64,000 nucleotides of DNA from NCBI RefSeq assembly GCF_008831285.2, contig NC_045141.1:16478106-16542105 (forward strand), in the 5' to 3' direction. Origin of the DNA: Nymphaea colorata. Taxonomy: Eukaryota; Streptophyta; Magnoliopsida; Nymphaeales; Nymphaeaceae. The number at the start of each line of letters is the position of its first letter. Within the stretch, counting starts at the first letter, position 1. Below, piece by piece: positions 13,523-61,054 of this stretch. The notes under the pieces were generated by a model that worked only from the letters and a program-made list of their open reading frames with translations, ran no database searches and was not told the DNA's origin. The position numbers and the translations under genes are program-made.

Positions 13523-15106
13523 TCAACCATAAAGAGGGACTTTCCTCAGTCTTTCCATCTTCATGGTCAGATTGAAAGCCAGATCCTTCTTTCCATCATC
13601 CAAGAGACACTGCTTCAGCTTGCTGAACATCGGCCCTGGCGGCCGAATCCCCTTCTGCAGCATCTCCTGAAAGTAATCACAGGCTTCCTCCATCCGATTT
13701 TCGTTACAGAGCCCGCCGATCAGCGCCGAGAACATGTGCATGCACGGCATTACGCCCCTTTCAATCATCTTCTTCCACACTTTCATTGCCATGTCCACCT
13801 GCTCAGCCCCACAGAACATGGTCACCAGCATGGTGTACGTATCCAGATCAGGCTCACACCCGCCTTCTTCCATCTCCTTGAACACCTCGTACGCCTCTGC
13901 CGATCGCCCTGACTTGATCAGATGGCGCAGAACGATGCTATAGGTACGGGAGCTCGGCGGAACGCCTGAATTCCGCATTTCCGCTATCACTCTGAACGCG
14001 TCGTCGAACTGCATTGCCCAGCAGTAAGCCCCCACGAGCGCGTTGTATGTAGGAAGCCCAGCAACGAATCCCTTCGCTTTCGATTCTTCGAAGAATCCGA
14101 TCGCCTCGTCGAGCCGCTTCGCCGATCCCAGCCCGTTGATCAGAGTGCAGTAGAGGTGCGGGCTCAGCTGACGGTTCTTTGCCTGCATCTGCCGGAATTC
14201 CCGCACGGCAGCATCGTAACGCCGGTCTTTGCAGAGGGCGTTTATCAGGATGCCGTGGGTGACGACGTCGGGCTCGAAACCGGCGGCCTTCACACCGCGG
14301 TAGATCTCTCTTACCTTCTGCAGATCATTCTCGCTCCCCCACGCCTCCATCAGGATCGTGTAGGTCTTCAGATCGGGCTGAAACCCTTTCTTCTTGGCCT
14401 GTTCGAAGACCCTCTGAGCCCTAGCGACGTTCCGGGACTTCGCGATCGTGTCGATGAGGCGGTTATAGTCGGCGATCCCAGGCTCGAGCCCGAACTCCCG
14501 CATCCGGTCGAAAGCCTGGACGGCCTCGTCAGGCTTCCTCGCCCGCGCGTACCGGCGGGCGATCAATAGGAAGGTGTCTCTGCTCAGGACACCAAGCTTG
14601 TGCATGGATTCCACGAGGGACCAGATCAATCTAAACTGCTTAATCTTGCCGAGGGCGTCAATCAGGGCGTGGAACGATCCGGCCGTGTAACGGAACCCTG
14701 CCTGCTTCTCGGCCCACCGAAAGAACCCCAACGCGAGCATCCCGGCATTCCCGAGCCTCTTCAGAACCTCCTCAGCGAGCTCTGTGCTCACGGTGGCGCC
14801 CGACCGGTCAAGCACCGAGGCGACGCCGGCGCTGTCTGTCTGCCCCGCCAGCAACCTGCATATGCCACTGGCGTCTTCGGGGATGGAACCCTCCGGCCGC
14901 TCAGGAACTCCATGGAAAGAGCGGGGAGGGAACCCAAGCTCCAGATGTACGGCCGCTGTTTCTCGGTGGACTATTAGGGTTTTGATGGGGTTTGCAGGGA
15001 TAGCGGGATAGCAGGACTGCCCCAGGATAGACGACGGAGAGACAGAGGAAAAGGAGGACGATTTGGGGAGACAGCGGACGACGGTGGAAACCCTAAAACG
15101 CCTCAT
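13523..15106 (-). CDS. Pentatricopeptide repeat protein, P class (At1g71060-like), organellar
   Basis: PPR proteins bind organellar RNA in a sequence-specific way; P-class members act in RNA stability, splicing or translation. The single exon encodes 527 residues from the ATG at 15106 (the frame also runs on upstream from a TTG, but the first Met begins an Arg/Ser-rich, acid-poor stretch like a mitochondrial targeting peptide). About ten 35-residue repeats run from about residue 143 to 491, with the usual motif ends such as GFQPDLKTYTILMEAWG, GFEPDVVTHGILINALC and GCEPDLDTYTMLVTMFC. The C-terminal block GIRPPGPMFSKLKQCLLDDG matches my memory of Arabidopsis At1g71060 and its relatives. There is no E, DYW or SMR domain. 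It is GC-richer than the flanking B3 genes and lies alone between REM-B and REM-C. Confidence 0.94.
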   Translation of the reverse strand: MRRFRVSTVVRCLPKSSSFSSVSPSSILGQSCYPAIPANPIKTLIVHRETAAVHLELGFPPRSFHGVPERPEGSIPEDASGICRLLAGQTDSAGVASVLDRSGATVSTELAEEVLKRLGNAGMLALGFFRWAEKQAGFRYTAGSFHALIDALGKIKQFRLIWSLVESMHKLGVLSRDTFLLIARRYARARKPDEAVQAFDRMREFGLEPGIADYNRLIDTIAKSRNVARAQRVFEQAKKKGFQPDLKTYTILMEAWGSENDLQKVREIYRGVKAAGFEPDVVTHGILINALCKDRRYDAAVREFRQMQAKNRQLSPHLYCTLINGLGSAKRLDEAIGFFEESKAKGFVAGLPTYNALVGAYCWAMQFDDAFRVIAEMRNSGVPPSSRTYSIVLRHLIKSGRSAEAYEVFKEMEEGGCEPDLDTYTMLVTMFCGAEQVDMAMKVWKKMIERGVMPCMHMFSALIGGLCNENRMEEACDYFQEMLQKGIRPPGPMFSKLKQCLLDDGKKDLAFNLTMKMERLRKVPLYG

Positions 15107-15990
15107 CTTCGCTGAAACCAGAGAGATTGGTTCGTCTCTTCGATATATTATCAACACTTTGGTGTACAACTAATAATTTTACAATTCATTTGATGAACAA
15201 GAAATCTTCAAGAATAAAAACTTCGGGGCGAGCGTTGAAGATGAATGCCCAAAAGTGACAACTGGGATTGATTCTGAGGACTCTTGAATTTACTTCACTA
15301 CTCAATGATTCTATGAATTTACTCCACTACCCAATGGTTGGAGTAGATACTTATAGCACCAAACTTGTGTATTCGTTCTTGAATCTGGCCTCATCTTGGA
15401 ATAGATTTATGGAACAAACGACCCCAATCGGAGTAGATGCGTAAAGAACTAAACTTAGGTGTTCATGAATCTGCCCTTAGATTTATGGAACAAACAACCC
15501 ATCAGATTCGTTAGTAGCATTTCAGCTAAGTTTATTACACCAATCAAGGTCTCTCTATTGCTAGTTTTAACTATTCGAGGAGACGAGAGACCTATGCTTT
15601 TCGTAATTTCAGATGCCGTACACCAACAATGTTAACGGTTTACTCATGTTACATGAACTTTCAATAAATCAATACTTTCTTAGATTTTCAAATATAATCA
15701 ATAAGTAGTTAGTTCGATGATACTTAGATGTGGATGTGTAGAGAAAATTGATCACCTAGTAATTTCAAACCCCATGTTAACAAAGAATAATTAGGGTAGG
15801 GAGAGAGAGAGAGAGATAATAGAACAGAGCAGCTGTTTGTAGAAACAGATAATTACAGACCTAGGAGAGGCAGATAACTACAGATCTAAGGGACAAATAA
15901 CCACCAAATAACAGCATGCAGCAAACCAACTATCTGCAGTGAAATTGGATCCAAAAAATTAAGCGAATGTTCACAAACATTACACGTCGA
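15107..15990. other. PPR gene upstream region and REM-C 3' flank
   Basis: This holds the promoter side of the PPR gene and the 3' side of REM-C, both on the minus strand. Two loosely repeated blocks (GAGTAGAT.C.TA and ATTTATGGAACAAAC) occur between 15290 and 15510, and a short GA run lies near 15800. No gene is seen. Confidence 0.5.
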
Positions 15991-36920: not shown

Positions 36921-37255
36921 GATAGTTCCATGTTGTTTTTTAAAGGCTAACGAGGAGAATGTTCATAGAAAGAGTTAGGTTGAAGATTTTTACCAGAGCT
37001 TGGTGATTGTTTTGTGGTTGTTTTGTTATTCCTTCATCTTGTTTACTAATTTACTCCTCAATTTCTGGATTGCCTCCTATCTGTTTTTATCTCTTTTTCA
37101 TTTTTTCTTTTGTCTCCATTCTTGTCCTTACAATCATGTCCTTACAATCACCAAGCTCTCGCGAAAATCTTCAACCAACTCTTTGAAGAAGTGTGGCTTT
37201 TTCTATGAACATCCGTGGCACTGCATCAGCCTCTGGAAAACAACATTGAACTCTC
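36921..37255. pseudogene. Inverted pair of decayed REM first exons
   Basis: On the minus strand, 37255-37144 aligns with the first exon of REM-E: the ..CHGC.(stop)KKPHFFKELVED pattern is readable, with TAG where REM-E has the Trp codon of ECLWK, and it ends FRESL before a GTGATT donor-like site. On the plus strand, 36921-37010 carries the same sequence (GATAGTTCCATGTTGTTTT, GAATGTTCATAGAAA, GTTGAAGATTTT, CAGAGCTTGGTGATTGT) with about 16 bases deleted at the PHFFK codons. Both copies share the TAG, so the stop came before the inverted duplication. Neither can encode a working exon. The spacer is about 130 bases and T-rich. Confidence 0.75.
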
Positions 37256-37916
37256 ATATTTCGGCTTTTAGCCCTCGCCGCCTTTGGGTTCTCTTCTGCG
37301 TTCTTTTTTGCTTCTCTTTCTTGTTTATAGACTGTTTTGTGAGCCATTTTCTATTCTTGGTGCTAATTGAATTAGGCAATTTGTCGGTTGTGGGCATGAG
37401 AGGAACAGCCATTATTGTTTTAGGCAATACGAGGAAAATGTTTCTTGCAGATCATGCTGTGCGACACATTCTGTGGATAGTCACTTGTGTTTATTTTTTG
37501 GTTGCTGAAATAGTTTTTGCTTAGCATTTAAGGAGAAAAGATATGAAAACAAAGTCAATATTCACATACACAAAACACCGACATTTATAGTGTACACATA
37601 CGCTGGGGAACCCTCTTTCATTATGTTCTTTCATGGAAACTTTTTTAGTATTTATTTAAGGCAGAGATAAGAAGTGTAATAATAGAGAAATTGGACACAT
37701 GAGAAGCATATATTATATATGTATATATTTTCTAGATATTTTGATTATACATATGTTTTTTTTTGTGTGCGTATTATGGTTTGTCTGTGGACAGCTCGGC
37801 CCCCCCAAGCAAGAAATCTTGGCTCTGCCCCTGCCTAGAATAGAGTTTCAGTTCGGTAGGTGTGCTACTAGTTCCATTCCAGGAGATTATAAAGCTTTCT
37901 AGTTATTTCTTCTCAG

Positions 37917-38868
37917 CAAATTCCACCGGCGTTTGTGAAGCATCTGAGAGTTGGTGAATCTGGAGCAGCCATTGTCAAAGACCATTCTGGTAGATCTTGG
38001 AATATTAAATTGTTGAGGGTGGGTGACCGTATAATATTTGAGTAGGGATGGAAGGAATTTGTTGAGGAGAATGGCTTAGACACAAGTTACTTTTTGGCTT
38101 TCCGATATGATGGAGAGTTGCATTTTACAGTCACCATCTTCGACAGAAGCTCGTGTGAGAAGCTTCAATGTGTTGATGAGTCTCCTGCAACTCCCACTGC
38201 GGATTTGATTGCTGATGAAGAGCATTGGCAGTCTGTTGTGATGTGGACATGGAAGAAAAATGCACAAGAACGGAAGCATGGGATGCTGCATCTTCACTAA
38301 TGACTAACATTCAAGAAGATGGTGACAGAAAGCGACTCATATCGTATGGTAAGCGTCAATTCCTGTGGCTGTCTTCTTTCAATTTCATTTTGGTAAGCAT
38401 TCACTGCACTGACACAGTGATGGTGATGGTCTTCCTCCTTCCCTCCTGTTACGTGTGGGAATGCTTACAGTTGCTTTCTTATGCTCAACATTAATTTAAC
38501 CAGGAATTTTGTCTACCATTCCCCATTATCTATTCTTTTTTTTTTCTTGATCAAATGATCTGTAAACTACTGTTGTATGTTTTTTCTTTTGTCAGCATAT
38601 TCCAGCTGACGCTCCAAATGCAAGTTTGCCAAATAAGACTTGTCAGGTGAAGCTTGAGGATCCTGATGATAGGCAATGGCCCGTTAAATTCATGATGGGT
38701 ATCAACTCCAAGCGAGCTCATGCATTGCCTCGTATGCGAAGATCAATGGGTTCTGGGTGGCGCAACTTCTTTGAAGAAAATTGCCTGAAGAAACGAGATG
38801 TCTGTGTTTTTGAATTTATAGCAGGAAAGAACCTATTCAATGTCCACATTTTTCGGGACGGAACATAA
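37917..38868 (+). pseudogene. REM-F: B3 pseudogene with intact second domain exon
   Basis: Exon 2 begins after the acceptor at 37916 with QIPPAFVKHLRVGESGAAIV and matches REM-E closely. An in-frame TAG at 38043-38045 replaces the codon before GWKEF, where REM-E reads SKGWKQF. After it the frame is open again (FRYDGELHFTVTIFDRSSCE). A second break lies in the linker: stop codons at about 38297-38303 sit in the frame that leads into TFKKMVTESDSYRM. The final exon, 38596-38868, is fully open: HIPADAPNASL, MGSGWRNFFEENCL, RDVCVFEFIAGKNLFNVHIF. No functional first exon is found upstream; only the decayed relics at 36.9-37.3 kb are candidates. Gene death looks recent. Confidence 0.85.
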
Positions 38869-38911
38869 TGAACATTTGTATGCAATTTAATTGACAGAAT
38901 GACGATCATAT

Positions 38912-40070
38912 ATCAGTGGAGCGTTGTCAGTGCTTATGTTCAAATGCTATCTAAAAGACATTGTTATTATCTGTGACTTTTTGCCATTGAATATGTTCAA
39001 ATGCTGTTTATGTGATCCTATATAAAGATACAGGTCTGTTTTGCCAAGTATTTTTCTTCCGATTGTTTCAAATGATAAACCTTAACTGGCACCTAGCATC
39101 TTTACCTAGCACTTTCATATTATTATAAAATTTAGCATATTTACAGGATGTAAACAGAAGCAACTCGAGAAAGAGTTCTTAATTCACGCATGCTTCACAT
39201 TAGCGATGCAAACAGAAAGTAACTCGAGAAAGTAGTCCTTAAATCCCACATGATTAGTATGGGATTTAAGAACCAGCTATTTTCTGTTCACATCCCAGTG
39301 TTTGTAAGTATATACGTTCAATTTTATACAAATATGAAAGTGCCAGGTGATAGTGTTTATCATTTGAAACAATCGACCAGTATGAAGAAAAATATTTGTC
39401 AACAAAGATCTGCATCTTTATATAGGATCACTCGAACAGCGTTTGAACGTATTCATTCGCTGTTCATATGACTTACCATTTTCATTGAGCCCATGCGCAG
39501 CATCAATGCCTTCATCATTGCTAAGTCTCAGTTTGCGTCTTGTTGTAAAACTGGATAGAGTCAATATTGCTTTGGTGAAGAAGTCGGTGATCGTTTTCCA
39601 TCATCCAAAAAATGCCTTCATTTGGGACACAAGTTTTTCTTCAGGAAGCCCCGCTCTAATACCATGTTGAAAAAAATAAAATAAGCGAAATAAAATGATT
39701 ATTTTCATTAATCATGCATCGTTTTTTTCACCATGGAAGGCTTAGCCTTGATATCCAAGTAGATAAAGTCCCTCATAGATATAAGGGATGTTACTAATGG
39801 TCATTGATCCTTGATTTTAGGCGATTTTACAATAGTTCTGATGTTCTTCACTATTTGCTGCTTTGTTTCTATTATTTGTTGTGTTATCAGGATCAATAAC
39901 AGCTCCATACCTATCAGTAATAGCTTTCTTGATCTTAACTGAATCATCTCATAGAAGGTTCTGATTCTTGTCTCCAACGATTCGGTGGCAAAAATCCATA
40001 GATAATATCAATGTGTTTTAGATAGCATTTGAACATAATCATTGGCAACGCTCCGTGGATGTATTCACAT
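38912..40070. repeat. Large inverted duplication of the REM-F 3' flank
   Basis: The REM-F downstream sequence (about 38912-39128: GGAGCGTTGTCAGTG, TATGTTCAAATGCTATCTAAAA, GTGATCCTATATAAAGAT, GATTGTTTCAAATGATAAAC) recurs on the minus strand in two parts, about 40070-39980 and about 39460-39315. The 510-base interruption between the parts is the retrotransposon fragment listed separately. The spacer at the centre also has weak inverted symmetry (TTAAGAACC.. / AGTTCTTAA). Confidence 0.8.
39465..39979 (-). mobile_element. Truncated copia-type LTR retrotransposon fragment (LTR plus primer-binding site)
   Basis: Read on the minus strand, the piece starts CGTTGGAGACAAG (a TG-start LTR with one change), runs about 310 bases and ends TTTTTTCA near 39668. 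It is followed by ACATGGTATTAGAGC, which matches the initiator-Met tRNA primer-binding site typical of plant copia elements (TGGTATCAGAGC class). About 180 bases of leader follow and then the element stops. It interrupts the right arm of the inverted duplication. A short GAAT repeat at both edges may be the target-site duplication. No gag or pol is present. Confidence 0.6.
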
Positions 40071-41052
40071 ACAAGTTGAGCATGAGTTAGCGTGCTGGCA
40101 TTTCTGTGTTCTCCCAAATATCATAATGTAAAACTTGATATTGTCAGACTGAGTCTCCGAAATATGTTCTACCGGCAGCTTTGCACCTTGGACCTCTAAT
40201 ATTGGGATCTGATATCCATAGAGATTTCAACATCACCATTTTCCATTGATGCCTAAACATATAACCCGCTCGAATATAAGGAGACCTTTGAGAAATCCAT
40301 GGGAAAAAAATCTTCGTTAAGCAATAGTGAATGTAGATAAGCTGCATCCCGAGGCCGCAATTCCTTTCGATCTTTCCCACCATTGGACCAGAGAGATAGG
40401 ATTCTAATTGTACCAGAGAAGGTTTATATATCTTTTCTCTGCTGCTGTGTCCTTTGATTTCTCCTATAGGTTTGGAAATAGTTTTACATCGTTTTGAATG
40501 CCTCAATATGACTGCTATTCCCAATAGTTTCCAGATTTGATGTATCTGCATTTCGTGAGTGCTGGTTCATCTTAATCTGTTCAGATTCGATCGTCTTCCG
40601 ATATGCATGGAGTTTATTTCCAGAGACATCGATGGGATTTCAACGCTCTCTAGTTTGGTTTCTGTCGTTGAGTTTCTAGCAGAAGTTTAACACGAAGTTC
40701 TTTCTTTCAATATTTTTTATTATCAGGAAAAATACAAGTGTATGTCAGATGATTCACAAAGAAATTTGCTTCTGACATGGTATTATCGTAAAAGTTTGGC
40801 CTATCATAATTTTCATGGTGTTCGGCTGCATCTCCGTGCAGTCAGGAATCCTGACGGCGATTTGATCTTGCGGTGTGAACTGAGAATGCATCTTTTCGTG
40901 TTCTGTGACAGATGATGCATGTGAGGAAATGCTCCAGCGCAAGAGACTGAGAGAGGCAGAAGCAGAGGTAGAGGGTGGTGGGACAGTGCTCTCTGGCCGC
41001 CCCTTTCCTCCTGAGCTGTAAGAACGAAGCACAGACGGTAGAGAGGGGAAGA
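40071..41052. other. Interval before REM-G
   Basis: The minus-strand frame at 40144-40551 (135 codons, true ATG) shows no domain I recognise. The 40.8-41.05 kb stretch is GC-richer and corresponds in place to the 5' UTR/first-exon region of the other REM genes, but has no in-frame ATG before the REM-G exon. Confidence 0.4.
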
Positions 41053-42972
41053 TCGAACCCAAGGCGAAGGATGTTCAGGGAAGAAGCCACACTTCTTCAA
41101 GGTGCTGATTGGAGATTTTAAAGAGAGACTGGTGATGATTCTATCATTTTCTTCTTTCCGTTCTGAGATTAATCATTCCTCATCTTCTTGTTTTTTCTTC
41201 CTTTTCAGTGCTTGCACCACGTTATTATCTTGCTTGCTTCTTCTGCAATCTTTTAAGTTGCTATGCCTACTCATTTTCTCTTATTAGTAGTATCTTTGTT
41301 TTTAGTTTTTTGCTTCACTTCCTGGTTTGTCCATCTTTTTTATCCTTTCCTAAAACAAAGAGAAGGGGAATGGTTTTTTAGGACTTAAGTTTTATGGAAT
41401 CTCCGGTCAATTCCCTACCAAAGACATACGTATTTTTTTATTGTTCTAGTGGTTGGTGCGTTTCATGGATTACCTAGGGTTCCGCTTTTCGATTCCTTGT
41501 AGTCCTTCATTTTGGTCGACTGTTCATTCATTCTTTTATTCTCCTTATGCCATTCTATATTTCTATTAGAATGAATTTATTTGAATTTTGAGCCGCTAGT
41601 GGGTGGTTAGGTTGATCATAAATGTTGGTAACTGCATGCTGTGACAGAGAATTCCACCTGCTTTTATGAAGCATCTTGCAATTTAGGAATCAGGAAGAGC
41701 GGTGGTAAAAGACCAGTTCAGTAGATGTTGGGGCTTTGAAATTTTTGGGGCTGGTAAATGGTAATGATATGATCAGAAAAGGGTGGGAGAAATTTGTTGA
41801 GAGAATGACTTGGAAACAGGGGACTTTTTGGTTTTCCGATATGAGGGGGAATTGCGTTTTACGGTCACTATTTTTTTTACAAAGGCGCCTGCCGGAAAGG
41901 ACCTAATAGTGGTGATTTTTCTGCGAAATCCTAGTATTGACTTCATTCATCATCAAGACCATGGAGAATACACGCTCTAACCATCTCATAAGGAGGAAAA
42001 GGGAAGATCTGCATCATCTAACGCTTGGGATGCAGCTCCTTCGTTCAAGTCTGCTAAGTGCTAGCCCTACTTTCAAGAAGTTGGTGACAGAACCCAGAGG
42101 TTACAAACTTACAGTACGGGGAGTCTTTACTTTCCCTTTGTACTCTTCTTTGTCTTAATTTTATTTTTTCTTTTGGAGCGAAAAAGTACAGGATTGTTCA
42201 AACTGGCGAAGGTCCATCCATTTAGAAGGATCTCTATGTTCTCCAAAGCTTCTTGACTGTATGGTCTATCTGTTCATCATGACATTGGTGCTACTTGGTG
42301 CTTGTTTTTATCGTATGTTTATTGTATAAATAGCATGTTCTTGTTTATCGAGTAAATTCGTCCTTCTTTTTCTAAATTTCACATACTGGAAAATGCACAA
42401 AACAATGCTGTAGAAACCTGTCCCTTTACATGGAGCAATGCTTGATCACATTTAGAATTAGTGTACAGTAAAACGCCACACTACAGCCAAAAGGACGAGC
42501 ATGTAACGTTAGGTGATTTTCTGAAGCAGTGTTGCAGTTACTGCTACCTGAGTGCCTTGGACTGCAAGCATGAGACATACAGATTTACTGTCATCAATAT
42601 GAAGATTGATCCATATTAGACGGCATGGATACTTGTCCATTGCCGTTAATCTTTTCTTTTTCTTTTTTTTTTTCATGATCCTAAATGACGTCAAGTTATT
42701 GTTGCTGATCTCTTCGTTTCGCTTGATGCAGAAAGTTCCTCTTTCCTTTTCATCTGCATACTTAGCAAAAAATTGGGTGAAGCTTCGAAACCAGCATGGT
42801 ATGCAGTGGAACTGTGGACGTCAAATGCAACATTAGATTGTGAGCACTAACCACTGGGTGGCAACATTTCTCTCTTGAAAATCACTTGAAGAAAAGGCCT
42901 GTCTGCGATTTTGAGTTAATAAACAGAGAGCGCGAATTCAATGTTCATATCTTTGGTGACAGTGCAACATGA
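41053..42972 (+). pseudogene. REM-G: decayed two-domain B3 gene
   Basis: The first-exon remnant (41053-41131) reads GCSGKKPHFFKVLIGDFKERL split by its junction, with donor GTGATG, but a TAG at about 41035 closes the frame upstream and no ATG lies between. Exon 2 starts at 41648 (RIPPAFMKHLAI), followed by an in-frame TAG at 41684-41686. Later bases show frame shifts around the GW..F motif (near 41765-41810) before FWFSDM-like sequence. The linker block PTFKKLVTEPRGYKL is at about 42066-42110. The final exon starts at 42732 (KVPLSFSSAYLAKNW), hits a stop at 42834-42836, and resumes as HFSLENHLKKRPVCDFELI and FNVHIFGD to a stop at 42972. It has multiple independent lesions, so it is older than REM-F. 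Confidence 0.88.
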
Positions 42973-50455: not shown

Positions 50456-50865
50456 CATGCAGTGAGTTTTGTGAGAAGAAGAGATAAACCTTAAAGAAAA
50501 TCAGCTCCTGTTGATCTTCCAAAAATTGAGCTGCGAGAGAGCTTCAAAAAGGTAAGTTTAACTCGTTTGGGTAAACGACCAGCACTATTGGCAATGTGCA
50601 ACTTCTAGGAATGATCCAACGTTTTGTATGTTAAACAACAGTTATCGGCTCGCCCGAGTTATATGAAGAGATCGTATTTTGACCTCTAAGAACACCATTC
50701 CTTTTAAGACATGATGGTGAGAGGAAAGCACTTTGAGATTTTTCTTTTGATTTCTGATAGTGTCCACCTGATCCTACTTCCCACGTCTTTAGAGTGTCCA
50801 TATCCAAAAAGCTAAGTAATTTTTGAAAAGTAAATATATTATGCTACCCTTGTCTTGTTCTACGA

Positions 50866-51000
50866 TAAGGTTGAAACAACCATTTTAAAGATATTCAAGG
50901 AAAGAATCCCAACAACATCAATCAAAATTAATGATTAAAAAAAAATCTTTTCACAAAAATCAGATTTAGTTTCCTATATTTATTGTTGCCAAGATTATAG
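50866..51000 (+). mobile_element. Partial LTR copy adjoining the TRIM-like element
   Basis: This stretch (GATAAGGTTGAAACAACCATT ... GCCAAGATTATAG) matches the first half of the LTRs of the element that starts at 51001, including AAGGAAAGAATCCCA, AAAATTAATGAT and CAGATTTAGTTTC. It ends abruptly where the next LTR begins, as if one element had inserted into, or recombined with, another copy. Confidence 0.7.
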
Positions 51001-51812
51001 TGTTAAAGATAAGGTTGAAAGACAACCATTTTAGAGAAATTAAGGAAAGAATCTAATAAGATCAATCAAAATTAATGATAAAGGGAAAAAAATCTTTCCA
51101 CAAAAAATCAAATTTAGTTTCCCTTGTTTATCGTTGTGAACTTTAACTATTTAAACTCTTTCTATGCATTATGTAACCAACACTCATGGTGACCTTCTAT
51201 AGTGAAAAACTATGCACGTTTAATGAAAAAAATCTTTTCATTGTTGGTTTTTATTTGTTTTTCTTACTTGGTATCAAAGCATGATGCTTGAATAATAAGA
51301 ATGAAGCTCATAGATGACTTGCAGATGACCAAATACATCGATGCCTTCTTCACCAAAGCGAAGAATCGATCTTATGAAGAAAATCTTGAGGAATCAAACT
51401 TGGGTTTTTCGAATCGCTGACAAAGCACGATCTACCTTTACAAAAACTTCATGAAGCAAATTTGGGCTCGCCGAATCACTGCCAAAGAAACGACATGATC
51501 ACCTTTTACAAAGTTTTGTAGCAAACTTGGACTTTTAGATCCATCATCCAATTTGAGAAAGGATGTTAACGATAAAGTTGAAAAACAACCATTCTAAAGA
51601 TATTCAAGGAAAGAATCCCAGCAAGATCATTCAAAATTAATGATAAAAGAAAAAGAAAATCTTTTCACAAAAATCAGATTTAGTTTCTCAAGTTTATCGT
51701 TGCCAAGATTATAGGAACTTCAACGCCAAGATTATAGGAACTTCAACAATTTTAACCAACACTCATGGTGGCTTTTCATGGTGACAAACCATGCACGTTT
51801 AATAAAAGACAT
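51001..51812 (+). mobile_element. TRIM-like miniature LTR retrotransposon
   Basis: The left LTR begins TGTTAAAGATAAGGTTGAA at 51001 and runs to about 51265. A primer-binding site follows (TTGGTATCAAAGC, 51268-51280; initiator-Met tRNA type). The internal part is only about 280 bases and has no long frame; it contains a tandem pair of about 70 bases (AACTTGGGTTTTTCGAATCG / AATTTGGGCTCGCCGAATCA). A polypurine-like tract (GAGAAAGGA, 51555-51563) precedes the right LTR (TGTTAACGATAAAGTTGAA, 51564 to about 51812). Shared LTR blocks include CACAAAAA.TCA.ATTTAGTTTC, ACCAACACTCATGGTG and ATGCACGTTTAAT. LTR divergence is visible, so the element is not recent. Size and lack of coding capacity fit the TRIM class; exact right end and target duplication are not fixed. 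Confidence 0.78.
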
Positions 51813-52501
51813 TAAACCCATATATACAACCCACCATTTGATGAACAAAAGGTATCACAAGTTTTTGCATCTGCCAAAAGGAAAAATGTTTGAAATAAAT
51901 ATTAAAGGAAAAAGACAAACGCTTACACCAACAAAGCAGTGGCGGAGCCACATGGTGGCTAGTGTGAGCATTTGTCACCCTAACCTTACAAACTTCACTT
52001 ATTTTGATGTTAATATTTTCATATATTACCACCAAAACTTTGATGCGTAAAGTACTTGGGTGACAAGGCAACTTATATTTAAAGGGATATGAGATTTGAA
52101 TTCTATGGTCGCAGTCACCCTCTAGCATGTTACTTTTTTGAGTTGTAAATGATAGTAAGCGCAACACACAGATGATGCGTCTACTAGACCTCATAATGTT
52201 AGGGTATGATTTAATTTAAAATTTTCACATTGCAGGTTTTTCCACAAGTAAATATTAAAAGAAAACAAAACTTACAATGATATCAACATCCGTATTAGAG
52301 GCATATGATTATATGAAATGATACGTAAGATAGTGCTGTATCAGCCCCGTTGAATTGAGGGTGAATTTGTTTATTTTTCACTATGTTCATTTAAGAACAG
52401 ACTTTAAAAACTAAAGCAAATGAAAAAAAAAGAATTGAAAAAATTGGCATTCACTTGCCCACCACCAACTTACACGGCCCTCCTTCAATGATCTAAAAAT
52501 A
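51813..52501. other. Interval between TRIM-like element and foldback element
   Basis: Only short frames, with no true domain. It is AT-rich and may contain further transposon-derived sequence, but no boundary can be fixed. Confidence 0.4.
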
Positions 52502-52679
52502 TTCATCCATGAATAAAGAAATATTTGATGTGATTCATTCCCAGTCTCACATATTTGGTCCGGAAACGGTCAATGATGTATAGTTGGCACATCCACCTGG
52601 AGGGCAAATTGCTGTTTTTCAATTGTTGGTTTGCTTGCCTCTTCTTTTGACACATGGGTACATACACAAGTGCAGTATC

Positions 52680-53036
52680 ACCAAATTAGCGACGGTTCTT
52701 TCCACCCTGTTTTGGGTGAGCAAGGTTTAAATGCTGCGTCTCGTCACGACTCCTGTTCGGAGGAGCCTATAGGTTGCACGTCAACTCGCTCTCGGGGTCG
52801 CTAAAGACAGTGTTTTCGTTCAACACTTGCCCGGCTGCATTGGTGAAGAGAAGGATAAAAGAATGAGTCCAATCCGATTCCATTAACGCCTTAGCGACAT
52901 CGAAAAGCGGGCGTTGCGTATCCATTTCGGTTAAAATTTCGGGAGCTCACCGTAATTGAATCCTCCCAGGAAGGCGTTTGCGGTGGGCTCGTGCTGCTGC
53001 TGCAACTGCAACTCGGCAAGCAAAGCATCCCTCGAC
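52680..53036 (-). pseudogene. Captured host-gene piece in the left foldback arm
   Basis: This is the inverted copy of the fragment described at 53461-53821. Exon-like piece 1 (53036-52951) is six bases longer because of an extra TTGCAG-type unit in the Gln run. Piece 2 starts at 52834 and contains a stop (CNL then TAG) and changes in the Arg-rich part. It is therefore more decayed than the right-arm copy. Confidence 0.6.
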
Positions 53037-53460
53037 CTGCGGACCACCAAGCAGAAAGCACGGGGTTAAGAGGAGGAAGCAGGAGCAAAGCAATCAGGGA
53101 GGAAAGAAATGAAGGGAGGAAGGGGTGCAATACCGTTTTCTGAAATCGGGCAATAAAGAGTTGGACGCTTAGTATTATTTCCAAGCAAACCATCTGGAGG
53201 GCAACATGCTGCTTTTCAATTGTTGGTTTGCTTGCTTCTCTTTTGACACATGAATACATACAAAAGTGCGCAGTATCACCAAATTACCGATGGTTCTTTC
53301 CACTCTGTTTTGGATGAACTTGGTTTGCCTGGAAATAATACTACGCGTCCAACTCTTTATTGCTCGATTTCAGAAAATGGTATTGCACCCATTCCTCCCT
53401 GATTGCTTTGCTCCTGCTTCCTCTTCTTTAACCCTGTGCTTTCTGCTTGGTGGTCCGCAG

Positions 53461-53821
53461 GTCGAGGGATGCGTTGCTTGCCGAGTTGCAGCAGCAGCAC
53501 GAGCCCACCGCAAACGCCTTCCTGGGAGGATTCAATTATGGTGAGCTCCCGAAATTTTAACCGAAATGGATACGCAACGCCCGCTTTTCGATTTCGCTAA
53601 GGCGTTACTTAAGGGAATCGGATTGGACTCATTCTTTTATCCTTCTCTTCACCAATGCAGCCGGGCAAGTGTTGAACGGAAACACTGTCTTTAGCGACCC
53701 CGAGAGCGAGTTGACGTGCAACCTAGCGGCTCCCCGAAAGAGGAGCCGTGACGAGACGCAGCATTTATTTAAACCTTGCTCATCCAAAACAGGGTGGAAA
53801 GAACCGTCGGTAATTTGGTGA
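53461..53821 (+). pseudogene. Captured host-gene piece in the right foldback arm, two exon-like blocks
   Basis: Block 1 (53461-53540) follows a good acceptor (TGGTCCGCAG) and ends at a good donor (TTATG|GTGAGC): SRDALLAELQQQHEPTANAF then LGGFNY. Block 2 (53661-53821) follows ACCAATGCAG: AGQVLNGNTVFSDPESELTC then NLAAPRKRSRDETQHL and a stop at 53821. The phase of the intron between them (phase 1) is correct on both sides. A Gln-rich start followed by a short basic RKRSRDE-type motif resembles the N-terminal part of plant S-ribonuclease-binding/BOI-type RING E3 ligases, but no RING is present and the match is from memory. The fragment lacks a start codon and a C-terminal domain. Confidence 0.55.
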
Positions 53822-54194
53822 TACTGCACTTTTGTATGTATTCATGTGTCAAAAGAAGAAACAAGCAAACCAACAATTGAAAAGCCGCATTTTGCCCTCC
53901 AGATGGATGTGCCAATGGAAGGGTGACAAGAAGGAATATCAATGGATAGAGAATGGCAATGCATCAAAGGGTAACAACAAGGAATAACAATCGATAGAGA
54001 CTGGGAATGAATAAAAGATTAATCACATCATACATTTCTTTATTCAAGGATGAAACAGAAGTTTACAACCATAAATGAGTGAAAAAATATGTGCAATTAC
54101 AGTGAAGTCGGACTAATGCATGTTGGCCTTCTCTCAACGGAGATTACAGGAACACAAGAAGTTAAATTAACCCCCTTGTTTTACAGTGTTATCT

Positions 54195-55741
54195 TCACCT
54201 CCGACTGCTCATGAGCTTGCGCCTCTTTGCTTCCTTCCTCTCCCGTTCTCTCCTCTCTTCCTCTTCAATGAGGGCAAGTTCCCTCTCGTCTTCCTCTTTT
54301 GCAATCCTTGCGCTAAAGACCCAAAAGAGAAAATGAATTCATCAATCTGATGGAGAAATTTATCAATCTCAACTTGCAGATTGCAGATCTTGCAAACAAA
54401 ACATGTGTTCTTAACTTTTCTGATTTCTCTCAAAACCATCGCGAGTCCAAGTCCTACACCATCAGGTAAACAAATCAAAAAATCGGGAAACTACTTTTAC
54501 ATCAATAAAACCTTACAGGCTTCCTTTTTTGCATAATTGGAAAGATCAAGTACATGACAACAAACAAGGTCAGAAGTTCAAGATAAAACGAGCAAGTGAT
54601 TACCTTGGCCTTTCCTCTGCTTGAATGCGTCTGAAATCTACCTCCATGTCACTGTCATCTTCGTCCATCCCTCTATATCTATTAGGATCATACCTGTACA
54701 AGATCCGTGAAAACCACCGAGTAACAGGTCAGCCAAATACATTGTCAACCCATTTTTAAAATTTATGATGATTCAAAATTATGAATTGATAATGCGATAC
54801 AGACTTGGCTGATCAGACCAGTATCAATGCCCAAGCTCCAGGACAGGCTTATTCTTTTCATGGAAGCAACTTAAAGAGGTTTGATTTTTAAAGTAATATA
54901 AAAGCAAATACCTGAACATTTGCCTAATCAAACTTCGGTAATCCCCTCCACTCCCTTCGTCATCAGAATGTTCATCTGCAGGCCTCTTCTTTGGCCGTTT
55001 GGTGCTTGTAGGCCAAGAAGGGAGTTGCTTTTGAGGGTTCCCATTCTACAAGAAAAATACAGTTAGATGAGAGAGATAGAAAGACAGAGACAGAGAGAAG
55101 CTAAAGCCATCTATGCAGAGGAATATAACAGAATAGTTACCCACACCTTTATGTAAGTTACATATCTATCTAACAAGATCATGACATGCAAGAGAACACA
55201 AGTCACAGGCACATTTGCAGTTGTATTCTGCTGCCACATAAAATTAACATCCTTTCTCCATAAAATCTTCCACAATTTTGCACTATGCACATATCTCCAA
55301 AGAAGTGAATAAATGACAGCACCCGAACTGTTTATTCTGAGGTCTGAAAATTAATTTAAAGTTTCCAGGAATATAAACAAAAGACAAGAAGGAAACAGTT
55401 GTTTTCAGGTTTGTTCGAAATGGAATACCAACAACTAACTAAGCAGGAAATGGCAATCCTTAGGGCTTCCTCTGACCAGCTATATAAGTTTTCGGAAGAA
55501 GGCAGGACAAATGCACTAGAAGACTGTATAAAATCTAGGTGCTTAAGCCTAGTAGCAGTAGTCACGGCATCTCCATAATCTTATTGCATCAAAATGCACT
55601 TAAGAAGTAAACCAGTGAAGCATTTAAGAAAACTCCTTATGAGAGGGAGAAAAAATGCAGTCATGGAATGCAATTAAATATAAGTTACTAGGTAAGGTTT
55701 AGAAACAAATTATGTGCATATATACATGCAAGCATGAGCAT

Positions 55742-55774
<33 letters not shown>

Positions 55775-58700
55775 GAGAGGGTGGTAAGGAAGAGAGGAGA
55801 GAGAGTCAGAGAACCTGTTTTCCTATTACTTTTGGGTGTTGGGTTGTAGGCAACGGTCGTTGAGAAGTCATTTTAGGAGTTGCATGCTCAGCCTTTTCTG
55901 CTCTATGTATTGCTTTTGAACCACCACCTGCTGCTTTGGTAAGGGTGTCTTTGGTGCACTAACAGAAGGCTTATGCTTATTTGTAGCACTAATAGCCTTC
56001 CTGTGGTCCAATGTAGCACCACGCAACTTTTGACCTGGCACTTTTGTTCCAATGGGCCGGCCAAGTCCATTCCCTCCATTACCAGCGGGAAGCTTCCCAG
56101 GTTCACCTTTCCTTGCATTACCAGCAGGAAGCTTCCTAAGTTCACCATATCCTGCATTACCAGCAGGAAGCTTCCCAGGTTCACCATTTCCTGCTGCTAT
56201 CTTCCTAGGTTCACCATTTCCTGCATTACCAGCAGGAAGCTTCCCAGGTTCACCATTTCCTGTTGCTATCTTCCTAGGTTCACCATTTCCTGCATTACAA
56301 GCAGGAAGCTTCCTATGTCCACCATTTCCTGCATTGCCAGCAGGAGGCTTCCTAGGTTCACCATTGCCAGAAATACTAGCAGGAATTTTCCTAGTCCCAC
56401 CAGATGATTTAAGGTTGCTCGCAGGAGCACCTTTTTCTGCGCCAAAGTGAAGTGGAAGCCTACCAGCTGAAACTGTTTCTTGGTTACCATGGACAGCACG
56501 CAGTGCGTTCGCAGGCTTGCTCAGTGATGGCTTTCGATTGGCAGTCACTTGGCTTGACCAAGCATCTTAGACATCAGAGTAACTTAAATAAATCCTCCTG
56601 GTGAAAATATATAAGAAAGAATAAACTCAAAGATAGTGGACACAACGTCACTATCAACACACCAAAAGTAGGAAGCACTTTTGGTTGAGGGATGGGATCC
56701 TTTGCAGGTGCAGGAAATTCTGCATCTCCTGACAACAGGAATGAATAATCTCTGGCTTCTTTAAGTTTCTGTGTTTTCAGCTTGGTCTGCAAGCACAGAG
56801 CAATCCTCTTCAAGGTAAAATTTACATATCGTTGTAGGCAAGTCCTTTTTGACCACCATACCTTGTCAACAGGCTTAGGTGGTGGCCTACTTTCAGTAGA
56901 TCTTCTATGTGCATTTGCCATGCTATGGACATTCTTGTTTTGCTGCTGGAAACATTCAGTAGGTGAGTCAGCAGGACAGTTACATGCAAACTAATGATCA
57001 CACTCACCCATTCATACCTGTGAAGCAGCCTTTGATCCACTGATTGTAATGTGATGTAAATCCAGCATACCACGCCTTTCTTCTATCACTCTTTTTGCAA
57101 CAACAGGCTGAGAAGGCCCAAAGAAAGAACCAAAGCTGCAAAATAGAACAGTCATCAGTTTGGAACTTAAAATAAAATAATCATTACAAACTATTTCTTA
57201 ATGTCAAAATTGATAGAAAGAAACCAATACTCAGCATGATAAAGGTTTTATCACAAAGTTCTGATTATCAATTTTAATAAATTATGAAATTTTTATATTC
57301 ACAAATCACAAGCCTTAAGCCCAGCCTATTTAGGGAGTACTAAATGCAAGTTATGGCAATTGGTTCATACCATCATACAGTGATACTTTTTATTTAGACT
57401 ATCTATCTCACAGGACTAAAGATGAGAGAACAACATTTTGGTGAAATTGCATACCACGCATTATACATAAGGTGGTATAATATGGTAGTAAAAATTAGGT
57501 ATCCACATGGTCTATGCATACACTATGCATTTCATCAAATTGCAGAAGCAAGAATCAAGTGTGAAGTGCAAGCTGCGGAACATCTTCTTGCATAGTCCAA
57601 TCAAGTCCCATCACAAGGGAACAGCGAGATCTGTTAGGGTCCATCTCATTTGTATCCAAGAATGCCCCTTCTGAAAATAAATCATGTAAGATCTGTCCAT
57701 ACTCCAATTGTGGAAATTAAGCTTATGATGATATGCAAAATTCAATGCCCCAATATGCTGATGGTGTTGCTTGCTTATATAAAGGAAAAGGAACTACAAA
57801 CATGAAATTATTATTTCTGTCCAGATGAGAGAAAAACAATCCTCTGAAGACAACAAGACTTTGAAATACCTTTCTGTCACACAGCTATGGAAAGAGGGTC
57901 ATAAGGCTGCAAATTACCTGGTTAGGTATGTCAGCTTCAAGCCTGTTTGGCCTTTGTGGCACAGGGTACATACCTGCATTGAATTCTAGGGTTCCTCCAG
58001 AGACCTCCTCATAGGCAAGGTAAGCGCACCCTGGAGTTTTCCTCGATAGACAAACAAAACGAGAAGTGGAAGATGAAAAGCATAGCTGGTTATAACTTAT
58101 ATGTGTTGTCTAATTGTATGTACATGAATAAGAGCGGATGTTTTATTTCTCATAAATGTCTCCATTTTCTGGTCTGGTGTAATTGTTTTTACTGAGAATG
58201 TTCCAGTCAGAATCCCAAAAAGGAGACACCTTTGATTCCTCAGGATAAAATGTACAATGGAACAGATAACATCTTTTATATGTACATTGTGCAGTCAACA
58301 TGCACATCCTAGGCTGGCAAGTCCAACAGAAGAAAAAATTTGGCAGTTCATTCACAATTTTAATGTACAAAAAGGTCTTTGGGCTTCTGCATTTAACCTC
58401 TTTACAAAAATGAAACATGAACTAATATAAGTTACCAAAGCATACAGTTTAAATTGCAGATCCACAAGCCCAACATTTTTGACAGATCCTACATGAAAGA
58501 TGACGGGGTACCAATTTAACATGGAGAAAGAAATATAAAAGAATGATATTCACATTTCACTGTAAATCCATGTGCATTAGCCAGCAAGCAACATATAAGG
58601 GTTTCAAGAAACGCAGAGATGCCAAAACAAGTGCAAGATATTCACCACACAAGAATGTTAGTTGGCTAGACTAAGATCAGTCCTCCACCATGCAAGCCAA

Positions 58701-59037
58701 CTTCAAAATATACAAATGAAAGAAAAGAAGATGGCACATTTCAGAAGCACAAAAAGGGCCATGGGTGATACCTATCTCTGGAAGATGATTTCTTCTCTTT
58801 GGCTGATACCAAAACCAAGTCATTCTCCTTTTTCATTTTCTGCCTTACAATTTCCTTCAGCTTTTGTCTCCTTTCCAAATATTCCAACTGGTCCTTGGTG
58901 AGCTGTGGATCTTCTTCCTCATTATTTTCATCTTTATATGCCGCTTCTTCTTCTTCCTCTTCATACTGGTCATTGTCTTTGTACTGTTCATCTTCTTCAT
59001 ATTCATCCAACTCTCTATCACTCTCTGCAACGAACAT
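54195..59037 (-). CDS. SPT2: SPT2-like chromatin protein (two apparent frame breaks; 5' end not fixed)
   Basis: SPT2 is a nuclear histone H3-H4-binding protein linked to transcription. Exons on the minus strand: about 59022-58772 (acidic: SDRELDEYEEDEQY, then LTKDQLEYLERRQKLKEIV), 57136-57018, 56945-56862, 56786-56663, 56565-55815, 55045-54912, 54693-54604, 54312-54195. The C-terminal SPT2 domain is clear: KRPKKRPADEHSDDE, GDYRSLIRQMF, RYDPNRYRGMDEDDSDMEVD, RRIQAEERPRSARIAKEEDE, ending RRKLMSSRR. The ATG at 59037 may be intronic, since GTTGCAG lies just before SDREL; an upstream exon is likely. Exon phases fail at two places: one extra base in a T run at 57118-57123, and one missing base in exon 5 near 55890. 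Each is fixed in frame by a single base. This is either assembly error or a true pseudogene. Confidence 0.82.
56070..56380 (-). repeat. In-frame GNGEPRK/LPAGNA tandem repeats in SPT2 exon 5
   Basis: The central part of the SPT2 protein has eight to nine units of the form GNGEPxKLPAGNA (13 residues, 39 bases), some shortened to GNGEPRKIAT/A (10 residues, 30 bases). The long and short units alternate twice, giving a 69-base higher-order repeat. All are in frame. The segment is basic, Gly/Asn-rich and probably disordered. Confidence 0.9.
57800..57990 (+). mobile_element. Possible RNase H-like remnant of a LINE-type element in the large SPT2 intron
   Basis: On the plus strand the frame reads SVTQLWKEGHKAANYLVRYV. 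This resembles the end of plant LINE/RNase H-like domains, where the pattern W-R-E-G-N-x-x-A-D-x-L-A recurs. Sequence on either side has stops in this frame and no reverse transcriptase motif is visible. It lies in the 1.6-kb intron between SPT2 exons, in opposite orientation to the gene. Confidence 0.35.
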
Positions 59038-61054
59038 CCAATTTGTGGAACTGAATTATTACCAATTACAATATGTTAAGACTTAAGTACACAAGCACAA
59101 AAAAGGTTCATGGAAAAAATGATGATTCATATGTCAAACCAGAAAACTGCTTGCATATCCATCAGGTCCCCGCATTGGTTTATAACCATCAAAACCTTCT
59201 CAACTGATCTCAAGCATGTATGCTGCAAATCTGTGATACCCGTGCATTGACTAACCAAATAAAAATGTTGGATACACTATGGTCAGTGAGAGAAATTTCC
59301 GAATAATCACAAGATGTAAGTATGAGTTCAGGAAAAGAAAACAAGAGCAATTTTAGATTGCTTATTTAATGCACATTACTAGCCATCCCACTGATTTTCT
59401 TTTATCTCTTGCTTGTGAATGTGAAAGGCAAGACTATCAAATGCAAATTTTGAACATTTTGATATAGTTGCTACTAAGGAAGCCTTGTAATATGAGATAG
59501 GAGCAATCAAGGATTCAAGAGTCAAAAGGGTCCTCCAGCAGTTGAGACTAACCCGGTAACCCCTTGTTAAATGACAGCCCTAGGAAAATTCTTTTCTAGA
59601 AACTGATTGATCCCTTTTTTAGTGGCAGCCCCAGAAAAACTCATTTTCTAGAAAATCGGTCTCCTTGAAAGTAAAACTTTTGTCTAGAAACTGTGTACTC
59701 AACAAAGTGAAAATACATTCTGAGCCTGAATAGTATTTGGATTTTGGAGAGCAACTAATACCCCACATATCTCCTGGTTTCTTAAAAATGTTATCCGGAT
59801 AATAATGTGCCCAGTCTGCAAAATTTCATTAGATATTCACAAATAACATATACTATTCCTTAAAATTATATTCCTTTAAGTTCCAAAAAGAACTTCCAAG
59901 CCAAATTTTAGAACCTTCATGTAAGCAGATCTAACGTTACTTTGTGAAGCAGACATGAATACAGCTATGGCTATTTGAATGCTCAAAAGTACAATTTCCC
60001 AAATTACAGCATATACACTTAAAACAGAAGGACACTTACTACAAGCATGTATCCTATCCACCTGATTGTCGTTACAAAACAGGTGAGCATGAGAATTTTG
60101 AAAAGTCTTTGCAACCAATCCACCTCTGGTTGACAAAGTTGTGAATGTCCTCTAGAAGATTTTTACTATTTAAAGCCTCAAGACGAATCAAACGTTCACA
60201 TTCTAAGAAACCAAAAGCATTGATGGATCACAAAGACGTACGACATTAGTTGAAAATTAGTACAAAAACATCACAAGGAGTAAAAATATCGACCGTGGTC
60301 TATGAGACACTACCAGATATCCGAGGCGTACATTCGAACGAAGGAAATTTTTTATGGTTTATGAAGTCTATTAAACAATGGAACCGCAGTTGGGACAACC
60401 CCGCCAAACCCACCCCATCCCCCCACCAAACACCCCGGCAAAAAAAAAAAAAAAAAAAAAAAAAAAGAAATAAGCCACACACACACACACAATATCTGTG
60501 TTTCCATCACTCTTTTCCTACTTTTTCCATGAATCATATATTCGAGATTGCAAACCTCGATAAGTAGATTTTCCGCCATTTTCCGAAGGCATAATTTCTC
60601 CTAAGTTTCTAGAGGAAGGCCTTGATTGGCATCGTAACGCCTTCAATTGCCCCTGAGATCTATTTGTGCAAAACGAAAGCGATGCATAAGAACCCCAAGA
60701 ACCAACATTCTAGCGTGATCTTTCAGAAGGTGTGCCCAACAGAAAAAAACTCGTAAAATAATCACAAAAAGTGGGATATCACAATAGCCGAAAACAAGAG
60801 GCAAAGAGGGTGCCAAAAGGGGGCGTATGGCCGGAGGAACGGCCAGACTAATAGGTCGCCTCGTCGGAAGTCTCGATCGCACTGTCGGAGATTGACGAGA
60901 GCGAGAGAAATAGATTGACAAGAGGGAGACTAAGAGGGCATGGTTCACAACAGCTTTTCCGAAAGCCCCGCCTACAAAACCGACCTTTTAGAAGAGCGCT
61001 CAGATTTGCTGTCCCCGACGGCCACCCACGTCGTCTAAATCCTTCGTCTGTCAC
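59038..61054. other. SPT2 upstream region
   Basis: This should contain the missing 5' exon and promoter of the SPT2 gene. A minus-strand ATG at 59175 begins MRGPDGYASSF, which resembles the Met-Arg-Gly start I recall for plant SPT2, but its donor phase does not match the next exon. A GC-richer, CT-rich block at 60.6-61.05 kb looks like a 5' UTR. A poly(A) run (60440-60466) followed by (AC)n (60477-60491) may mark a retroposed insertion. An internal 50-base duplication (GGCAGCCCCAG.AAAA.TC / TTTTCTAGAAA) lies at about 59570-59665. Confidence 0.45.
59847..59886 (+). repeat. Dispersed 38-base repeat, also twice at 63329-63404
   Basis: The sequence CATATACTATTCCTTAAAATTATATTCCTTTAAGTTC (shown here split: CATATACTATTCCTTA / AAATTATATTCC / TTTAAGTTC) occurs here once. 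It occurs again as a direct tandem pair at about 63329-63404, 3.5 kb away, almost without change. Confidence 0.85.

Follow-up and report, generated by a model that had tools for sequence, protein, structure and literature searches.

The cutting of hairpin transcripts into siRNAs by Dicer-like enzymes is an established pathway. For MIRNA loci, inverted duplication is an established model of birth (Allen and colleagues, cited in PMC3237417); in the outline given there, inverted partial copies of a protein-coding gene resemble their parent beyond a 21-mer and are foldable. In rice, two pairs of inverted pseudogenes with small RNAs from hairpins were reported, in which pieces of a single parent lie in opposite orientations within 2 kb; for the pair described in detail, a 185-nt stem, a 1,283-nt loop and many small RNAs are given (PMC2708354). 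Among MULEs and Pack-MULEs with extra TIRs, an intron-bearing gene fragment lies between inverted repeats and extra repeat copies occur; in the tomato part of that work, all 61 of 61 such MULEs have a TSD, and their TIR families number 266-1341 copies (PMC3310237). The Mu killer locus of maize is an inverted duplication beside a gene that derives from and targets a transposon. A hairpin RNA made by read-through from the flanking gene was once proposed for it, whereas silencing plants are reported to have antisense transcripts that do not originate in that gene (PMC3440606); Mu killer illustrates how debated read-through hairpins are.

The locus analyzed here lies in a 64,000-nucleotide stretch of Nymphaea colorata DNA (the window). 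Ten inverted-repeat pairs were found across 51000-56000, all of them within 52502-54054, and a palindrome at this position was confirmed as real. Its parts, together with the host neighbour, are as follows.

52502..52538, + strand: left arm outer end, an inverted copy of the SPT2-like 3' UTR/poly(A)-signal end, 89% complementary to 54018-54054.
52539..52583, no strand: left outer spacer, which aligns cleanly with the right spacer (53917-54017) at the first bases only.
52584..52719, + strand: segment A, left copy, from the inverted-repeat listing and the arm alignment.
52717..53173, - strand (gene sense): captured BOI-like fragment of the left arm, 89.2% by blastn to parent L005 4861-5333.
53190..53326, + strand: loop, the third copy of segment A, oriented as the left copy in the arm alignment.
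53340..53782, + strand: captured BOI-like fragment of the right arm, 85.1% by blastn to the parent, with splice sites read.
To about 53379, + strand: right-arm exon 1 tail, followed by intron 1 at 53380-53460.
53461-53540, + strand: right-arm exon 2, followed by intron 2 at 53541-53660 and the start of exon 3 from 53661.
53780..53915, - strand: segment A, right copy, from the inverted-repeat listing and the arm alignment.
53919..54017, no strand: 48-bp tandem repeat (x2.1) between A and the SPT2 UTR end, in the right arm and not in the left.
54018..54054, - strand: right arm outer end, the SPT2-like 3' UTR end, with AATAAA at 54044-54039 (- strand).
54035..59219, - strand: SPT2-like gene, the host neighbour, from colinear blastn blocks with a paralogue on contig C3.

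Aligned end to end, the arms (52502-53192 and 53321-54054) were identical at 628 of 664 aligned bases (94.6%), plus indels that amounted to 17 nt in total at one place in intron 1; the outer spacer also differed. The loop copy of A was identical to the right copy at 127 of 135 bases and to the left copy at 120 of 135. Read from SPT2 on the - strand, the order is X (UTR end, spacer, A), g (the BOI piece), A', g' and X', where the prime marks the reverse complement. The initial annotation had described inverted arms and, as the loop, the outer arm segment in a third copy, and the arm alignment bears this out. Acceptor, donor and phase, said to be intact in both arms, hold as well. Its two captured exons are both present in each arm, but the piece also contains the exon 1 tail and intron 1. 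The hairpin, called perfect-looking, is only roughly so, as the arms carry indels and unlike outer spacers.

Compared with the MIRNA inverted-duplication model, the arms add a piece of the SPT2 3' end and segment A, and they keep two introns. Compared with the rice pair, the stem is longer (~600 bp) and the loop shorter (128 nt). Neither the TSD nor the TIR family of the tomato MULEs was found for the palindrome in the searches given below. The target of Mu killer is a transposon, whereas that of the palindrome would be a host gene.

Against the rest of the window, the best match of the palindrome outside itself had an E-value of 0.096. The 62-aa peptide of exons 2-3 reached at best E 0.42 by tblastn elsewhere in the window, and it had no match in Pfam (E 0.1) or PDB (E 1). 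The window gave no Rfam match at gathering scores and none with ARAGORN.

The surroundings also contain repeats and genes of other kinds. Diverged direct repeats lie immediately left of the palindrome at 50864-51812 (a 144-bp tandem, and copies 565-579 bp apart). Genes with a B3 domain are clustered at 5323-47260, in either orientation; 11 of the 19 scanned window frames matched Pfam B3, and a PPR gene lies among them at 13526-15169 (- strand). Inverted repeats within this cluster (37147-41136) pair 37147-37219 with 41064-41136 at 79%, 38908-38992 with 39980-40064 at 84%, and 38983-39059 with 39384-39460 at 83%.

To find the parent of the captured piece, the genome (407.8 Mb, 783 contigs) was searched with the right-arm query 53461-53821. 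Among three candidates scored, one match lay outside the palindrome locus, on contig C7, with 88% identity over query positions 1-322. The parent expected by the initial annotation was thus found in the same genome. In the C7 DNA (locus L005), four exons positioned by eye make up what reads as a complete gene for 357 aa, at C7:17.2784-17.2799 Mb; judged from DNA searches only, this gene would be the closest parent. Its protein carries a C-terminal RING (Pfam zf-C3HC4_3, residues 307-348 of 357, E 2.3e-11), and the earlier guess of a RING E3 ligase agrees with a parent that encodes a RING protein. We call the parent BOI-like from the name BOI/BRG, which we assume for this gene, together with the RING match and the domain layout. 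According to PMC11432932, BOI has an N-terminal domain, a central domain and a C-terminal RING, and the layout of the parent is the same. In BOI/BRG-type ligases, the central domain can form a coiled coil.

The captured piece corresponds to L005 5333-4861, about 0.47 kb of genomic DNA that comprises the exon 1 end, intron 1, exon 2, intron 2 and the exon 3 start. Because the introns are present, capture took place at the DNA level. Arms derived from a protein-coding gene that is still in the genome, as found here, are a feature of inverted-duplication hairpins. Exon 3 of the left arm holds an in-frame TAG, and therefore no protein function is suggested for the captured fragment.

The order of events was read from an alignment of the parent and both arms over the captured region. 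In 426 gap-free columns, 385 were identical and 22 changes were common to the arms; the right arm alone had 9 changes, the left arm alone also 9, and one column differed three ways. Slightly different bounds of the captured region gave 24 shared, 9 right-only and 10 left-only changes. The breakpoints of the captured piece are identical in both arms. From the shared changes and the same breakpoints, it follows that a single capture of the gene piece preceded its inverted duplication, although some of the 22 shared changes may have arisen in the parent lineage. The stepwise build-up proposed in the initial annotation is therefore upheld.

The same divergence bears on whether the palindrome was produced by assembly. 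Long-read assemblies can generate false palindromes, in which nearly identical arms are expected. Here 36 of the 664 aligned bases are unlike between the arms, which also have indels and dissimilar outer spacers, and private substitutions occur on both. Because the arms diverge and carry private changes, a simple artefact is highly improbable.

Two junctions could be read against both sources. The A-gene junction has an overlap of TCA and the left arm-loop junction one of CCA, 3 nt each. Template switching or microhomology end joining could leave such overlaps, but they are frequent by chance and weigh little. A 7-nt junction microhomology (ACTACGC) was withdrawn, as the sequence of the unjoined acceptor there is not known. 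A methylation-type mutation bias was also dropped: C>T/G>A accounted for 6 of the 9 changes private to the right arm, 3 of the 10 private to the left and 10 of the 24 that are shared, too few to use.

The outer ends of the palindrome were compared with the SPT2-like neighbour, which matched Pfam SPT2 at E 1.1e-10 as a hand-joined peptide. Its stop codon (54195-54197) lies 141 nt from the outer end of the palindrome. The right outer end, together with its flank, has a match on contig C3 at the SPT2-like paralogue, where 54035-54354 aligns at 76.5% over 327 columns. This homology spans the last exon and the 3' UTR of SPT2 and runs beyond AATAAA down to 54035. The conserved SPT2 3' UTR thus takes in 20 bases (54035-54054) of the 37-base right outer repeat. 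The left outer end (52502-52530) matched the end of the paralogue 3' UTR at 82.8% over 29 nt (E 0.036). On this homology, part of the outermost repeat can be assigned to the SPT2 3' UTR. Within the SPT2-like gene, a tandem repeat was also observed at 56067-56394, with periods of 39, 30, 69 and 108 bp, parts of which match the C3 paralogue.

Six queries were used in a shuffle test against the paralogue stretch. The left outer end with A scored 67, compared with 32.7 +/- 5.4 for the shuffles; none of the 300 shuffles scored as high, nor did any of 1000 pieces drawn from real genomic DNA. When only the 300 nt behind the paralogue UTR were compared, the score was reached by 27 of 1000 draws; the strong score thus comes mainly from the UTR end.

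The origin of segment A itself is less firmly placed. Of 300 shuffles, 3 reached the score of left A alone, 3 that of the left spacer with A, and 207 that of loop A. Pieces drawn from real genomic DNA reached the score against the paralogue stretch in 20 (left), 276 (right) and 760 (loop) of 1000 cases, and against only the 300 nt behind the paralogue UTR in 11, 335 and 797 of 1000, respectively. Left A seems to resemble the DNA just behind the paralogue UTR and the right and loop copies do not, which is only suggestive; A is possibly native SPT2 flank.

The reading that we prefer, with a probability of roughly 60%, is that the palindrome, found at one locus, arose without a transposon, by an inverted duplication whose anchor is the SPT2-like gene's 3' end.

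A low-copy DNA transposon, either Pack-MULE-like or of the foldback type, would instead have A as its long terminal repeat and the BOI piece as cargo, and its palindrome would stem from two head-to-head copies or from an extra solo TIR. The stretch 53190-53915 alone reads A-gene-A', and a captured host gene fragment with introns, as found here, is a feature of Mutator-like elements and Pack-MULEs. Pack-MULEs typically capture 5' gene pieces with introns, and the TSD of Mutator-like elements is 8-10 bp. Extra internal solo TIRs do exist in MULEs, some of which carry gene fragments, according to the text on such elements in PMC3310237.

TSDs were scanned over 240 x 320 end pairs (TSD of 2-12 bp, with 13 or more of the 20 terminal bases in agreement), and 15 pairs passed. 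At the outer ends, only 2-bp TSD matches were obtained among end pairs with similar termini, which speaks against a transposon; the candidates above 2 bp (8/10, 7/9, 6/8, 4/5 and 3/3) all lay inside A. The genome search with A returned three matches, all at the palindrome locus (three candidates scored, very common words skipped), and the whole 1553-base unit gave, at E<=1, no match other than itself and the parent (two candidate places scored, very common words skipped). Five arm segments matched nothing at E<=0.01 in a sample of ~275 kb, in which a family of a few hundred copies would be missed; besides what remains of the window and two parent loci, the sample comprised 20 10-kb stretches, two of which adjoin the window. 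Long TIRs that other genomic elements also carry, as in Mutator-like elements and Pack-MULEs, were seen neither in the genome searches nor in the sample. No transposase was found among the 19 of 94 window frames (at least 90 aa) that were run against Pfam.

In foldback elements of the FB type, the outermost repeats consist of element sequence and are dispersed. Here the outermost repeat is partly SPT2 3' UTR rather than a transposon end, and one locus was found. The term foldback element, as used in the initial annotation, fails in its transposon sense, given this outer repeat, no fitting TSD at the scanned ends and no second copy in the searches. From the TSD scan, the copy searches and the SPT2 3' UTR homology, a transposon was rejected as first choice and is regarded as a rather doubtful alternative.

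The preferred inverted duplication at the SPT2 3' end would have taken two steps. In the first, the BOI-like gene piece (exon 1 end to exon 3 start) would have been joined to A beside SPT2, with an inverted A behind g at the g-A joining. In the second, the unit of SPT2 3' UTR end, spacer, A and gene piece would have been copied in inverted form round the further A, and the product would be the X-g-A'-g'-X' palindrome. Template switching as the mechanism and A as SPT2 flank are what we infer, and the anatomy, the parent, the capture before duplication and the SPT2 source of part of the outer repeat are observed.

The palindrome folds strongly by prediction. The + strand had a predicted MFE of -1205.4 kcal/mol, compared with -459.7 +/- 12.1 for 20 dinucleotide shuffles, and 610 base pairs were predicted between the arms; folding into a long hairpin, a proto-MIRNA feature, was thus found by prediction only. 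In the right arm, 58 of 714 21-mers were identical to the parent CDS, and in the left arm 51 of 671; the arms retain identical stretches of 56, 45 and 32 nt. With such 21-mers in both arms, hairpin siRNA action is possible, and the palindrome could possibly make hairpin RNA against the parent gene. Transcription by SPT2 read-through (- strand) or from an internal promoter would give a hairpin of ~600 bp, and Dicer-like cutting could yield siRNAs, some identical to the parent mRNA.

A working natural hairpin-siRNA locus, or a young proto-MIRNA locus, that would down-regulate the BOI-like parent is nevertheless unlikely. The predicted hairpin, the long identical stretches, the small RNAs of the one rice pair and the inverted-duplication model of MIRNA birth are all in keeping with it. 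However, the AATAAA at the edge of the palindrome faces SPT2 and should end SPT2 transcripts before the hairpin, and the arm that is read in sense, whichever it may be, could lose an intron through its splice sites; both speak against routine siRNA production. In addition, the arms are drifting, as their private changes indicate, and for the rice pair described in detail no small RNA was detected from the parent (PMC2708354). A still bolder reading takes the palindrome as a natural RNAi construct, made by replication template-switching, and not by a transposon, from the SPT2 3' end and an inverted BOI-like fragment. A hairpin fed by rare SPT2 read-through beyond the poly(A) site would tune the ligase and so couple a chromatin gene to defence/gibberellin signalling; we consider this quite improbable.

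The kind of locus is already known. Its frame of host 3' UTR sequence is unusual, and we make no claim that this is absent from print. How precursors of hairpin siRNAs or MIRNAs are born usually has to be worked out from old remnants. At this locus, the parent, the paralogous flank and the two arms can all be read in a single genome, and the order from capture to inverted duplication can be traced. Furthermore, a palindrome that looks like an element, with apparent terminal repeats, can contain host 3' UTR sequence.
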